NCBI RefSeq assembly: GCF_024138165.1
Contig: NZ_CP100000.1
Coordinates: 124,001-188,000, forward strand
Length of the DNA stretch: 64,000 nt
Reading direction: 5' to 3'
From: Halorussus vallis
GTDB taxonomy: Archaea; Halobacteriota; Halobacteria; Halobacteriales; Haladaptataceae
How positions within the stretch are numbered: position 1 is the stretch's first letter; the number at the start of each line of letters is the position of its first letter. Below, one piece after another: positions 35,612-59,065 of this stretch. The notes under the pieces were generated by a model. It was not told the DNA's origin, made no database searches, and saw nothing but the letters and a program-made list of their open reading frames with translations. Position numbers and translations under genes: made by a program.

Positions 35612-35920
35612 ATGAACGTGGCGAAGTTCGCGCTGTTGCTCGGTGTCGGTCTTCTGTCGTTCCTGTTCGTGACGGCACTCTACGTCGTCTGGACCAGAAT
35701 CGTTGGGCTCGACCCGACGCTGGCCCAGCGGTGTGCGAAGTTCTCCCGCCCCGTCCGGTTCTGCATCGCGGTGGGTTCGGGGGCGCTCCTCGGCACCGGA
35801 AGCCTGGCCGCGCCCTCGGTCGAACTGGGCGTCGCGGGGGCCGTGATGCTCGCCGCCAGCACGTTCGCGGCGCTGATGGCGTTCGAACTGGTCCAGCACC
35901 GCCAACACGCCCGAGCCTAA
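35612..35920 (+). CDS. Three-helix membrane protein, unknown
   Basis: A 102-residue protein. The helices (about 4-26, 47-65 and 70-92) begin with FALLLGVGLLSFLFVTALYV. A basic loop RCAKFSRPVRFCIAV and two Cys lie between helices one and two. The promoter has an inverted repeat overlapping its TATA box, suggesting regulated expression. It is divergent from the carotenoid cluster and its stop overlaps the end of btuD on the opposite strand. Function unknown. Confidence 0.65.
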   Translation: MNVAKFALLLGVGLLSFLFVTALYVVWTRIVGLDPTLAQRCAKFSRPVRFCIAVGSGALLGTGSLAAPSVELGVAGAVMLAASTFAALMAFELVQHRQHARA

Positions 35921-37284
35921 TCGAACCCGTCGCGTTCGGTTTCTTCGACTTCCGACTCCCCGACTTTCGACTCCTCGACTCCCGATTCCTCGACCGCGTC
36001 TTCCACGGCCGACAGCACGCCGTCCGGACCGACGACCCGGCCGCGCTCGCACAGTTCGCGGTACAGCACCGCGGCCTCGCTGCCGGCGAAGTTCCGTTCC
36101 TCGAAGGGGCGCTCCTCGACCACCACCACCGAGTCGGCCTCGCGGGCGACCCGGAGGTTCGCCACGTTGCCCGCGCCGACCTCCACGTCGGCCAGCACCG
36201 TCGCGTCGGCCGCCCGGACGCGCTCGGCCGCCTCGCGCCGGGCGGCGTCGCCGACCGGCGCGAACGGTTCCTCGGCGACCGCGTCGAGGCCGAGCGAGCG
36301 CGCGGTTTCGAGGTCCGAGTCGCCCTCGTTGAGCACGCCGACCGACACGTCGTAGCCCGCCGCCGACAGCAGGTAGAGGATGCGCGAGACGGTGCCCCCG
36401 CCGCCGACGACGTGGACGCGCCCGGAGCGTTCCGTCGGGCGCTCGGGGAGCGCGGTGACGTAGGTCGCGCCGGTGACGGGGTGGCTGGTGACGACCGCGC
36501 GGGTGTCGAACGCCGATTCGAGGTGTTCCTCGGCGAGCACCGCCGCGGGGTCGCCGGCGGCGGCGATACCGCCGCCGGCGAGCAACAGCAGTTCGTCGCA
36601 GTAGTGGGCCGCGAGGTTCAGGTCGTGGATTGCCGCCACCACGGTCTTGCCGTCCTCGTCGACCAGTTCCCGGACCAGTTCGAGCGTCCGGACCTGGTGG
36701 TTGATGTCGAGGCTGGCGGTGGGTTCGTCGAGCAGTAGAACGGGCGTGTCCTGCGCGAGCGCTCGCGCAAGCAGGACGCGCTGGCGCTCGCCGCCCGAAA
36801 CCGCGGTGACCGAGCGGTCTGCGAACGCCGCGACCTCGGTGCGCGCCATCGCCGCCTCGACGTGGTCGGCGGTCGACCCGGGCGCGTCGGGTGCGGCCTC
36901 GTCGGCGCGAGCGCCGACGAGGCCGCCTCGCGCGGCGGAGTCGTCGCGGCCCAGACCGCCGCTGAACCGCGACCGGTAGGGGTGGCGGCCCATCGCCACG
37001 ACCTCGCGCACGTCGAAGTCGAACGACAGCGAGGTGTCCTGGGGGACCACCGCGACGCGCCTGCTCACCTGCTTCGAGGAGAGGTCGGCGACCGAGTCGC
37101 CGCCGACCCGGACCTCCCCGGAGTCGGGCGCGAGGACGCCGCTGATCGTCCGGAGGAGGGTGGTCTTGCCCGCGCCGTTCGGCCCGACGAGTCCGACGAA
37201 TCTCCCCGCGTCGACGGTGGTGGACACGTCTTCGAGGATTCGATTATCGCCGAGTTCGACGGTGACTCCGTCTATCTCTATCAT
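35917..37284 (-). CDS. btuD: BtuD-like ABC transporter ATP-binding protein with C-terminal extension
   Basis: 455 residues. The N-terminal 260 residues are a FecCD/BtuD-type ATPase: Walker A GPNGAGKTT, signature VSGGERQRVLLARAL, Walker B VLLLDEPTASLD, H-loop AAIHDLNLAAHYCDE. An unusual insertion GLVGARADEAAPDAPG (about 115-135), whose DNA is a palindrome, lies just before the helix DHVEAAMAR. A separate Rossmann-like domain follows (about 285-435; RVHVVGGGGTVSRILYLLSA, then ADATVLADVEVGAGN, VVVVEERPFEERNF). The end is repetitive and acidic (EESGVEESKVGESEVEE). Haloarchaeal B12 ATPases commonly carry this extra domain; its job is unknown. It works with the permease at 37595 and the binding protein at 38762. 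Confidence 0.87.
   Translation of the reverse strand: MIEIDGVTVELGDNRILEDVSTTVDAGRFVGLVGPNGAGKTTLLRTISGVLAPDSGEVRVGGDSVADLSSKQVSRRVAVVPQDTSLSFDFDVREVVAMGRHPYRSRFSGGLGRDDSAARGGLVGARADEAAPDAPGSTADHVEAAMARTEVAAFADRSVTAVSGGERQRVLLARALAQDTPVLLLDEPTASLDINHQVRTLELVRELVDEDGKTVVAAIHDLNLAAHYCDELLLLAGGGIAAAGDPAAVLAEEHLESAFDTRAVVTSHPVTGATYVTALPERPTERSGRVHVVGGGGTVSRILYLLSAAGYDVSVGVLNEGDSDLETARSLGLDAVAEEPFAPVGDAARREAAERVRAADATVLADVEVGAGNVANLRVAREADSVVVVEERPFEERNFAGSEAAVLYRELCERGRVVGPDGVLSAVEDAVEESGVEESKVGESEVEETERDGFD
36893..36926. repeat. Intragenic palindrome in btuD, 16-bp arms
   Basis: The arm GCGGCCTCGTCGGCGC, a GA loop and a perfect complement are in frame in a segment (GLVGARADEAA) that typical BtuD/FecE ATPases lack, about residues 120-131. 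Confidence 0.7.
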
Positions 37285-37337: not shown

Positions 37338-37527
37338 TTCGCCTCGAACGCTCCTGCCCGCTCGCCACGGAACACTGCAACGATCGTGACTGCGAACACC
37401 TCGAAAGCCCCCGCCCGCTCGCGGTCGCTCTGCAGGATATTCGGTTCGCGCCTGTCGGCGCTCACCGAACAGTGGCCTGCAGAGGCGACCACGTAAACGC
37501 GAGCGGGCGGCCCCTTTCAGTCCCACC
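37338..37527 (-). repeat. Dispersed structured element, copy C
   Basis: Read on the minus strand it begins GGTGGGACTGAAAGGGGCC and its core (37403-37518) ends CGGGGGCTTTCGAGG. Nested pairing: GAAAG with CTTTC, CCGCCCGCTCGCG with CGCGAGCGGGCGG, GGTCGC-CTCTGCAG with CTGCAGAGCGACC, then TTCGGT with ACCGAA and GCGCC with GGCGC at the tip. A second GCGAGCGGGC-GTTCGAGGCG block follows about 50 nt on. It occupies most of the 310-bp gap between btuC and btuD. See copies A and B. Confidence 0.75.
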
Positions 37528-37594: not shown

Positions 37595-38701
37595 TCACAG
37601 CGAACGCACCTCCCGTTTCCGGAGGAGGTAGAGGAAGAACGGCGCGCCGAGGAACGCCGTGACGACGCCGACTGGGAGTTCCGCCGGGCCGGAACGGGCC
37701 ACCGTGTCGGTCGCGACCAGGAAGGTCGCGCCGGCGAGCGCCGAGGTCGGCAAGAGGATTCTGTGGTCCGGGCCGACCAGCAGGCGCATCACGTGCGGGA
37801 CGACCAGGCCGACGAAGCCGATGACGCCCGAGACGGCCACCGCCGCGCCGGTGACGACGCTGGCGACCGCCAGCAGGAGTCGCTTCGTGCGCTCGACTTC
37901 GACGCCGAGCGTGTGGGCGTCCTCCTCGCCGAGCAGGAGGACGTTGAGGTCGCTCGCGTAGGCGTAGAGTATCGCGAATCCGACGGCGGTGACCGGGAGC
38001 GCGAGTTCCACGTCGTCCCACCCCGCGAGGTGGAGGTGGCCCATCAGCCAGTAGACCGCCCGGCGGAGGCTCTCGCCGCTCTGGAGCAGGAGGAACGACA
38101 CCACCGCCCCGAGGAACGTCTGGACCGCAACGCCCGCGAGCAGGAGGGTCGCGACCGGGGTCCGGCCCTCCTCGGTGGCGAGCAGGTAGACCCCGAACGC
38201 GGCGACCATCGCGCCGAGGAACGCCGCGACGGGGAGCGAGAGCGGCATGAGAGTCGGGAGTGCGATGGTCGCGACCGCCCCGACCGCCGCGCCCGACGAC
38301 ACGCCGATGATGGAGGGGTCGGCCATCGGATTCCGGAAGAAGCCCTGCATCACGACGCCCGCGGTGGCGAGTCCGAAGCCGACGACCGCCCCGAGCGCGA
38401 TGCGCGGGAGCCGGAGCGAGGTGACGATGGTCCGGGCGGTGTCCGGGACCGCGAAGTGGAAGAGGGGCGCGAACTCGACCGTCGGCGCGGGGACCGACAC
38501 GGCCGCGCCCGCGAGGTGGACGGTCCGCTCCGCGAGGCCGAGGCCGACGGGCACCGCCAGCGCGTTCAACAGCACCTTGGCGACGACGACGTAGCCGAGG
38601 CTCACGGGACCGACCGCGGCGCTTCCGACGACGACGGCGAGCAGGGCCGCCGTCAACCCGACCGACCAGACGGCGACCCGCGCGTTCGCGCTTCGCTGCA
38701 C
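37595..38701 (-). CDS. btuC: BtuC-like ABC transporter permease (FecCD family)
   Basis: A 368-residue permease with about ten membrane helices. FecCD family blocks seen are [22 protein letters not shown], then [21 protein letters not shown], the coupling region [20 protein letters not shown] and [14 protein letters not shown]. The start is GTG at 38701, facing the binding-protein gene across a 60-bp divergent promoter. The ATPase gene lies downstream beyond element C. Cobalamin is the usual substrate of this haloarchaeal group; siderophore or haem cannot be excluded. Confidence 0.88.
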
Positions 38702-54794: not shown

Positions 54795-55027
54795 AACTCG
54801 AATCTTCACAGTCCGCGGTCGGCGCGCGCTGGCGTGACCCGGCGGTCACGCGAGCGAACGCGAGGCGGCGAAGCCGCCTCGGAATAGCGAACGGCGGAGC
54901 CGTGAGCGACGCGAGGGTGACCTCGGAAGATGCGGTTTGTCTTCCGGCGGTTTCGGGTCGCGCCCTCATGCGCGAGGGACGAGGACCGCAGTCGGTTGGG
55001 GAGGGTGTGGCGCTGTGCTGTCACGGG
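54795..55027. other. Hairpin-rich intergenic stretch before element A
   Basis: No gene was found. It contains the hairpins GCGTGACC-CGGC-GGTCACGC (about 54832-54851) and CGAGGCGGC-GAA-GCCGCCTCG (about 54860-54880), then GCGAACGGCGGAGCCG-like text. Together with element A it makes a 529-bp gene-free gap between the Rieske enzyme and fen1. Confidence 0.45.
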
Positions 55028-55183
55028 GGTGGACTGAAAGGGGCCGCCCGCTCGCGCCCGGAGGGCGTGGTCGCTTCCGACGGGCCACTATTCGACGCTC
55101 GCCGATGGCGAGCGTCGAATATCCCGCGGAACGACCGCGAGCGGGCGGGGGCTTTCGAAGCGGTCCCGTTTTTCGAGGCGGTC
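55028..55183 (+). repeat. Dispersed structured element, copy A
   Basis: It begins GGTGGACTGAAAGGGGCCG; the core is 55036-55156. Pairings: GAAAG/CTTTC, then CCGCCCGCTCGCG/CGCGAGCGGGCGG across a GGG:GGG internal loop, then GGTCGCTTCC/GGAACGACC, and a tip hairpin TTCGACGCTCGCC-GAT-GGCGAGCGTCGAA followed by the conserved TATC. The tail TTTCGAGGCGGTCACG repeats the end motif. Stem sequences differ from copies B and C but still pair. Confidence 0.78.
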
Positions 55184-55323
55184 ACGTTAGTAGATTCGTG
55201 GGGAGAACCAGAGTTTCCGTCCTCCTTCGGGGCATCTCCATCTATCGTATCCCCTTCGATACTCTAGCACGGACGCGAAAGCAGTAGCTTTCAAACCCTC
55301 GGAACGCCTACGCCCCGACAGTA

Positions 55324-58662: not shown

Positions 58663-58775
58663 CGGGCGAGAAACAGCCGACCAGCCGCCGGCGACGCTCT
58701 GTGACACACACCACTGGAAGCGCTCGGTCGACCGGCCGGCGAGGCGCTCGGTGAGACACACCACCGGGTGGTTCT

Positions 58776-58845
58776 CGTGAGCGAAGTCGTTCGAAAGGCG
58801 AAGCTTTTCGTGGTTCGAGAGAGCGAGGCTCTCTCGAACCACGAA
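58776..58845 (+). repeat. Dispersed repeat E2, copy 2, with long hairpin
   Basis: CGTGAGCGAAGTCGTTCGAA and AGGCGAAGCTTTTCGTGG match copy 1 at 9546-9602. Its end forms an 18-bp perfect hairpin (arm TTCGTGGTTCGAGAGAGC, loop GAG, 58807-58845). Confidence 0.55.
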
Positions 58846-58873
58846 CGAGAGCTCGTCGGACCTTCGGTCCGAC

Positions 58874-59065
58874 GGTGGACTGAAAGGGGCCGCTCGGTCG
58901 CGGCCGCAGGCCGTGGTCGTCTCAGCAACCCCTGTTCCGTGAGCGGCGGAGCCGCGAACCGAATATGTCGCTGAGCGACCGCGACCCAGCGGGGCTTTCG
59001 AGGCGGTTCCAGTAGCTCTGTATCTTCGGTCTATTGGAACGAATAGTCGTTTTCGAAGCGGTCGC
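58874..59065 (+). repeat. Dispersed structured element, copy B
   Basis: It begins GGTGGACTGAAAGGGGCCG; the core is 58882-58999. Pairings: GAAAG/CTTTC, CCGCTCGGTCGC with GCGACCCAGCGG (one mismatch), GGTCGTCTCAGC with GCTGAGCGACC, and GCGGC-GGA-GCCGC at the tip next to the conserved CGAACCGAATATG. The tail adds a GTTCCAGTAG/CTATTGGAAC hairpin and ends TTTCGAAGCGGTCGCG. It is preceded by GTCCGAC, as is copy C. Confidence 0.75.

Follow-up and report, generated by a model that had tools for sequence, protein, structure and literature searches.

A dispersed intergenic element with a conserved branched fold in Halorussus and other haloarchaea

Results and Discussion

Three intergenic copies of a repeat in the 64,000-nt stretch of Halorussus DNA analysed here (the window) belong to a strongly structure-conserved family that occurs in at least 26 haloarchaeal genera, Haloarcula, Halobacterium and Haladaptatus among them, and lacks an Rfam entry. 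The family has a conserved fold, is dispersed between genes without a preferred direction, undergoes gain, loss and replacement of copies, and has a core with sharp limits. Its behaviour is most like that of a non-autonomous dispersed element, and we infer copying of the core between sites. The explanation which we favour, with about evenly balanced confidence, is that of a dispersed element, structured and non-coding, together with a putative trans-acting system that copies its core to other sites.

Copies in the window and occurrence in haloarchaea

All three copies of the original prediction (A, B and C) were found again in the window at the predicted positions and on the predicted strands. 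Copies were scored with a covariance model (cmsearch), and in the genome of origin a score of at least 78 bits was taken to mark a strong copy. The core of copy A, comprising helices P0, P1, P1b, P2 and P3, lies at 55029-55167 on the plus strand (155.1 bits, E 1.7e-31), that of copy B at 58875-59010 on the plus strand (106.7 bits, E 4.8e-21) and that of copy C at 37392-37525 on the minus strand (134.6 bits, E 4.5e-27); the best hit elsewhere in the window scored below 17 bits. The shared core is 134-139 nt long, about 135 nt, and the surplus 3' bases that had been predicted to belong to the copies repeat the 3' end of the core in degenerate form. Judging from their sequence and from the 3' arrays of the family, such repeats are TTTTTCGAGGCGGTCACG at 55168-55186 on the plus strand, 3' of copy A, and GGCGAGCGGGCAGGAGCGTTCGAGG at 37342-37366 on the minus strand, 3' of copy C. 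When one mismatch is allowed, the window has three occurrences of the motif GACTGAAAGGGGC, against 0.08 expected in shuffles. Copy A has a Rieske/FAD oxidoreductase-like gene on one side and the FEN1 gene (XPG domains) on the other, copy B is flanked by two genes on the same strand, and copy C lies in the gap between a btuC-like gene (37595-38701, minus strand) and a btuD-like gene (35917-37284, minus strand).

The genome of origin carries 63 copies at or above the threshold. Within Halorussus the number per genome ranges from none (G009) or one (G007) up to 113 (Hrs. ruber, G012). In a sample of the order, matches were obtained in 70 of 243 genomes, a lower bound because of the strict filters, and in 26 of 77 genera; those with named matching records include Haloarcula, Halobacterium, Haladaptatus and Halosegnis. 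As far as was searched, the repeat is confined to haloarchaea. A pattern scan of a genome collection also matched unrelated bacteria; the covariance model scored none of eight such records and all 11 of the haloarchaeal records tested. The only window match at Rfam gathering thresholds was a tRNA, with none for the repeat. A literature search by sequence and topic found no description of it; supplements and subscription papers lay outside that search, so an older mention may exist. The family therefore has no Rfam entry and no description in the literature searched.

Structure of the core

The minimum-energy folds of copies A, B and C agree with the nested stems that had been predicted, with fold-energy z-scores of -6.4 for A, -1.6 for B and -6.9 for C, copy B alone being unexceptional. 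The prediction had missed P0 (GAAAG/CTTTC), which is a fourth helix, as well as the side hairpin P1b and several constant unpaired features: a loop of GGG against GGG, a pyrimidine bulging from P2, and an asymmetric loop that precedes P3. The core is a branched hairpin with a three-way junction. It starts 5' with GTGG(G)ACT, followed by P0 and the GGG/GGG mismatch, and continues with P1 (CCGCCCGCTCGC/GCGAGCGGGCGG) bearing P1b, with P2 (consensus GGTCG-Y-CTC../..GAGCGACC, Y being the bulged pyrimidine), with the asymmetric loop (CCAC, CAAC or CCCC against T) and with P3 (TATTCG../..CGAATA), after which CTTTCGAGG closes the core.

In copy A, where all features are on the plus strand, the 5' arm of P0 (GAAAG, 55036-55040) pairs with CTTTC at 55152-55156, a helix that covaries across genera, and the conserved GGG at 55041-55043 faces GGG at 55149-55151 in a 3x3 mismatch. 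The remaining helices were assigned from the fold: the 5' arm of P1, CCGCCCGCTCGC, at 55044-55055 with its partner at 55137-55148; the side hairpin P1b, GCCC-GGA-GGGC, at 55056-55066; the 5' arm of P2, GGTCG-C-TTCCG-A-CGGG with its bulged pyrimidine, at 55069-55084 with its partner at 55123-55136; and the tip hairpin P3, TATTCGACGCTCGCC...GGCGAGCGTCGAATA, at 55089-55121.

The unpaired features are kept as faithfully as the stems. Of 126 copies from two genomes, 116 have the GGGG motif beside one P0 arm and 115 have it beside the other; 118 of 119 have C or T as the P2 bulge, and the asymmetric loop before P3 is retained in nearly all copies. In one copy (L003, identical with L074) the GGG/GGG loop has become a perfect CCC/GGG palindrome. 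The type of the tip hairpin varies from copy to copy. Of the 62 P1b triloops found in two genomes, 53 were of the form C-GNA-G, always on the plus strand. GNA triloops give DNA mini-hairpins unusual stability, and their presence in P1b hints at a single-stranded DNA form.

Individual copies depart from this scheme. Three copies of Hrs. ruber (L228, L139 and L148) have in common an outer helix in which GAAGG/CTTC stands in place of GAAAG/CTTTC, which suggests homogenisation within the genome. Two otherwise near-identical orthologous copies, L390 and L391, differ by a 51-nt hairpin inserted exactly at P1b in one of them, and in L396 the distal hairpin (the end of P2 with P3) is inverted when compared with L409, its orthologous remnant in the sister species.

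Covariation and strand preference

Conservation of the fold by compensatory change, originally predicted from three copies, is supported far beyond them. Both sides vary in 25 of 49 pairs among 15 copies from the orthologous btuC-btuD site (shuffled mean 14.8), in 32 of 49 among the copies of the genome of origin, and in 38 of 49 among 99 copies from genus, family and order, the alignments having been fitted to the covariance model and so being biased towards it. Pairing cells amounted to 92% in the 99-copy set and about 40% in slid controls, and none of 500 shuffles matched the observed covariation. Across genera, both-side changes affect 10 of the 12 pairs of P1 and 13 of the 15 pairs of P3. 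Covariation in palindromes can also come from template switching, an alternative that the original prediction had not considered. Since the unpaired mismatches are kept, mutation that corrects palindromes is by itself no sufficient explanation of the covariation.

At paired sites G-T exceeds A-C, by 87:27 and 86:33, and more weakly (14:7) in the structure-free alignment A1. Together with the C-GNA-G loops on the plus strand, this excess indicates that one strand matters, and a preference for one strand is suggested.

Genomic context and flanking modules

The copies are nearly all intergenic, and the few overlaps involve ORFs that a rough gene caller predicted. The adjoining genes are ordinary housekeeping genes, with no transposase among the 25 families listed, and five head-to-head pairs of copies occur in the genome of origin. 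Relative to the upstream gene, 52 copies have the same and 46 the opposite orientation (P = 0.61), and a search upstream of the core for an AT-rich promoter-like stretch found none. The random gene orientation and the lack of a promoter signal speak against both a 3'-UTR signal and an independent small RNA. A 3'-UTR processing signal, one of the roles proposed at the outset, calls for same-strand placement after genes, and the counts contradict this; the proposed small RNA family is still graded as possible, with the missing upstream signal against it.

The copies might alternatively be genes of a functional structured RNA family (small RNA or RNA scaffold), present in large numbers in each genome and both selected and homogenised. 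This would explain the order-wide fold with its constant unpaired bases, the greater tolerance of one strand for G-U than for A-C, and the sense-direction copy found between btuC and btuD in 15 of 17 species. Such a family would be hard to reconcile with the absence of both the promoter-like stretch and an orientation preference, with tip hairpins that vary in type, bear inserts and in one case are inverted, with 0 to 113 copies among related species, and with the absence of an Rfam match. We consider it possible, at about half the confidence given to the copied element.

The flanks of the core are modular. On the 5' side there are tandem units of about 26 nt, CACCGGAAGCGCTCGGTGAC, or a 'left module', or a hairpin module. 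The left module is a separate repeat family; directly 5' of copy A it runs from GGCGCGCGCTGGCG... to ...GTTGGGGAGGGTGTGGC (54820-55015 with approximate ends, plus strand). At many loci the left module (GGCGCGCGCTGGCGCG ... GAATCGGCTGGGGAGGGTGTGGC) often lies directly 5' of the core, and it was also seen without a core at L140 and L144, upstream of FEN1. The hairpin module, TTCTCGTGAGCG...GTCCGAC, precedes copy B (58775-58873 with approximate ends, plus strand) and stands at the same place in several other copies. On the 3' side there are units of about 54-60 nt, each consisting of the repeated core 3' end and a locus-specific spacer; these downstream arrays are strand-specific and fade outward, with up to five units in a row in Hrs. 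salilacus. Four loci of that species (L269, L273, L279 and L317) have 3 to 5 tandem units 3' of the core. In the Hrs. salilacus arrays a constant core end of about 26 nt takes turns with a spacer of about 28 nt that is particular to the locus; the spacers are identical or alternating inside one locus and different across loci.

Turnover between sites and species

When the genome of origin was compared with Hrs. salilacus (60 copies compared), 11 of 66 copies shared site and direction, and about 4 of 66 had the same site with opposite direction. The flanks at most of the shared sites match at about 75-91%. At the 11 shared sites the mean core identity was 0.74, against 0.73 for random between-species pairs, and the best paralogs inside the genome of origin reach a core identity of 0.79-0.94. 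The similarity of close paralogs extends from GTGGACTGAAAG to CTTTCGAGG and is lost beyond, even where their 5' modules are of different types, and the sharp limits of near-identical cores fall near GTGGNACT/GAAAG and CTTTCGAGG. Examples of near-identical cores in unrelated flanks are L083/L084 (94%) and L113/L120 (93%, with different 5' modules).

Hrs. aquaticus (G002) and G017, whose flanks are about 95% identical, served as a close pair for comparison of sites. The cores are 94-98% identical at three sites; one site is retained with a different core (71-79%), another has a 51-nt hairpin inserted into P1b of one copy, and one has an inverted-tip copy in the first species and the 3' half alone in the second. 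At three further sites the element is present in one species only; at these few sites there was neither a target-site duplication nor a clean empty site, and the element together with some flank was swapped for unrelated sequence, for which deletion is a possible alternative cause. Some MITEs also lack target-site duplications. Since neither mark of insertion was found, we infer mobility and do not regard it as proven. Of the original proposals, a palindromic non-autonomous mobile element fits best, given the turnover in sister species, the near-identical cores in unrelated flanks and the many copies; the clean insertions at orthologous loci of sister species that were to accompany it were not seen, unrelated sequence standing in place of the element.

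The low similarity at shared sites could also be read as fast drift under structural constraint, without replacement. This reading is countered by the 94-98% identical cores of close relatives, which show that the core is kept where it is not replaced. Some sites are old, which speaks against copying: 15 of 17 Halorussus species have a sense-direction copy between btuC and btuD. For the copied element, the core could be transferred by transposition, or older copies at occupied sites could be converted, and a putative trans-acting enzyme or factor would recognise the folded single strand, probably the plus strand, as single-stranded DNA or RNA. A more specific form, which we put forward tentatively and on a par with the RNA family, is cassette replacement, which would make the family a new class of archaeal element: a putative enzyme would copy the folded single-stranded core over old copies at long-lived, fixed intergenic docking sites, and the old ends would be left behind as tandem arrays, outward 'growth rings'.

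The repeat might instead be a neutral long palindrome, with arms perfected by template switching or slippage without structural selection and spread by chance duplication. The GGG/GGG loop turned into a perfect CCC/GGG in L074 (= L003), the inverted tip in L396, the hairpin insert in L390 and the tandem arrays of the 3' end are what such a process could leave. It is already weakened because mismatches that it would erase are kept, also across genera (the GGGG motif in about 115/126 copies, the bulged pyrimidine in 118/119, and the asymmetric loop), and a presence in 26 genera is difficult to account for unless selection or active spread was at work; we think it unlikely.

Distribution over replicons

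In the genome of origin nearly all copies are on the chromosome (P = 3e-5). A chromosome-only distribution was rejected as a general rule, as Hrs. salilacus has about a dozen copies on its 342-kb second replicon. In BLAST searches of phages, plasmids and viral contigs, three Halorussus replicons were the only matches and none came from phages or viruses. Another candidate is a BIME-like site that binds protein or organises the chromosome, the bound structure being maintained by selection at numerous places between genes. It would suit the intergenic location, the many copies, the inverted pairs and the chromosomal bias of the genome of origin, and is slightly less likely still than the neutral palindrome, as that bias does not hold generally, the copy number is only 0 or 1 in two Halorussus species, and positional conservation is limited.

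Search for a possible mobilising partner and comparison with known repeats

A Y1 (PF01797)/RAYT/IS200 transposase was rejected as an obligate partner, being absent from G001, G003, G004, G005, G008 and G011, genomes that carry 28 to 80 copies. TnpB was rejected as well, since it was found in all genomes including the element-free G009. Scanning of 22 Y1 and 30 TnpB loci with the covariance model gave one truncated copy, near a TnpB locus, and weak scores, nothing of which was convincing; an autonomous relative with matching terminal inverted repeats was found neither near the palindromic element nor at the Y1/TnpB loci. Given the absence of Y1 from six element-rich genomes and the presence of TnpB everywhere, the family was not filed under REP-RAYT, PATE or TnpB guide RNAs.

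HEARO/omega RNA and the TnpB guide RNAs of IS200/IS605-type elements are structured, multi-copy and linked to mobile elements. The present repeat resembles both in being structured and multi-copy, and its core is preceded by a TGA-containing motif; it differs from them in that neither its location nor its presence across genomes is linked to TnpB, and in having no Rfam match. ERIC sequences of enterobacteria are intergenic imperfect palindromes of about 127 bp, for which no transposase is known. Compared by description, they belong to another domain of life, and the present repeat is set apart by its conserved side hairpin and by internal loops. The REP/REPIN-RAYT systems of bacteria likewise comprise many intergenic palindromes, some in inverted pairs, with lineage-specific sequence. 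REPs are 20-40 bp long (PMC3733652), whereas the present core has about 135 nt with a three-way junction, carries the 5' motif GTGG(G)ACTGAAAG and no GTAG/CGTC tag, and occurs in genomes without any Y1 transposase.

The small mobile repeats (SMRs) and palindrome-associated transposable elements (PATEs) of Haloquadratum walsbyi are described as transposase-free, short, high-copy repeats, and the mobilisation of SMRs is called enigmatic (PMC3119063). The likeness lies in these being short, high-copy, transposase-free haloarchaeal repeats, and SMRs (HqIRS42/43/55) are, when compared by description, the nearest described category. The passages of that paper on SMRs and PATEs mention neither a branched fold nor an order-wide family (PMC3119063). 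PATEs are similar to IS605-type ends (PMC3119063), unlike the present repeat, for which nothing convincing was found at the 52 Y1/TnpB loci.

If the core is truly copied between sites, a new archaeal enzyme or recombination path would recognise a folded strand; if the family is RNA instead, it would be among the most repeated structured RNAs in archaea. Natural comparisons are offered by the Halorussus genomes G009, with 0 copies, and G007, with one copy, both of which have an empty btuC-btuD gap. In the alignment of the empty G007 site the boundary was unreadable. In G009, btuD stands almost directly after btuC, an arrangement that is possibly the pre-insertion state.
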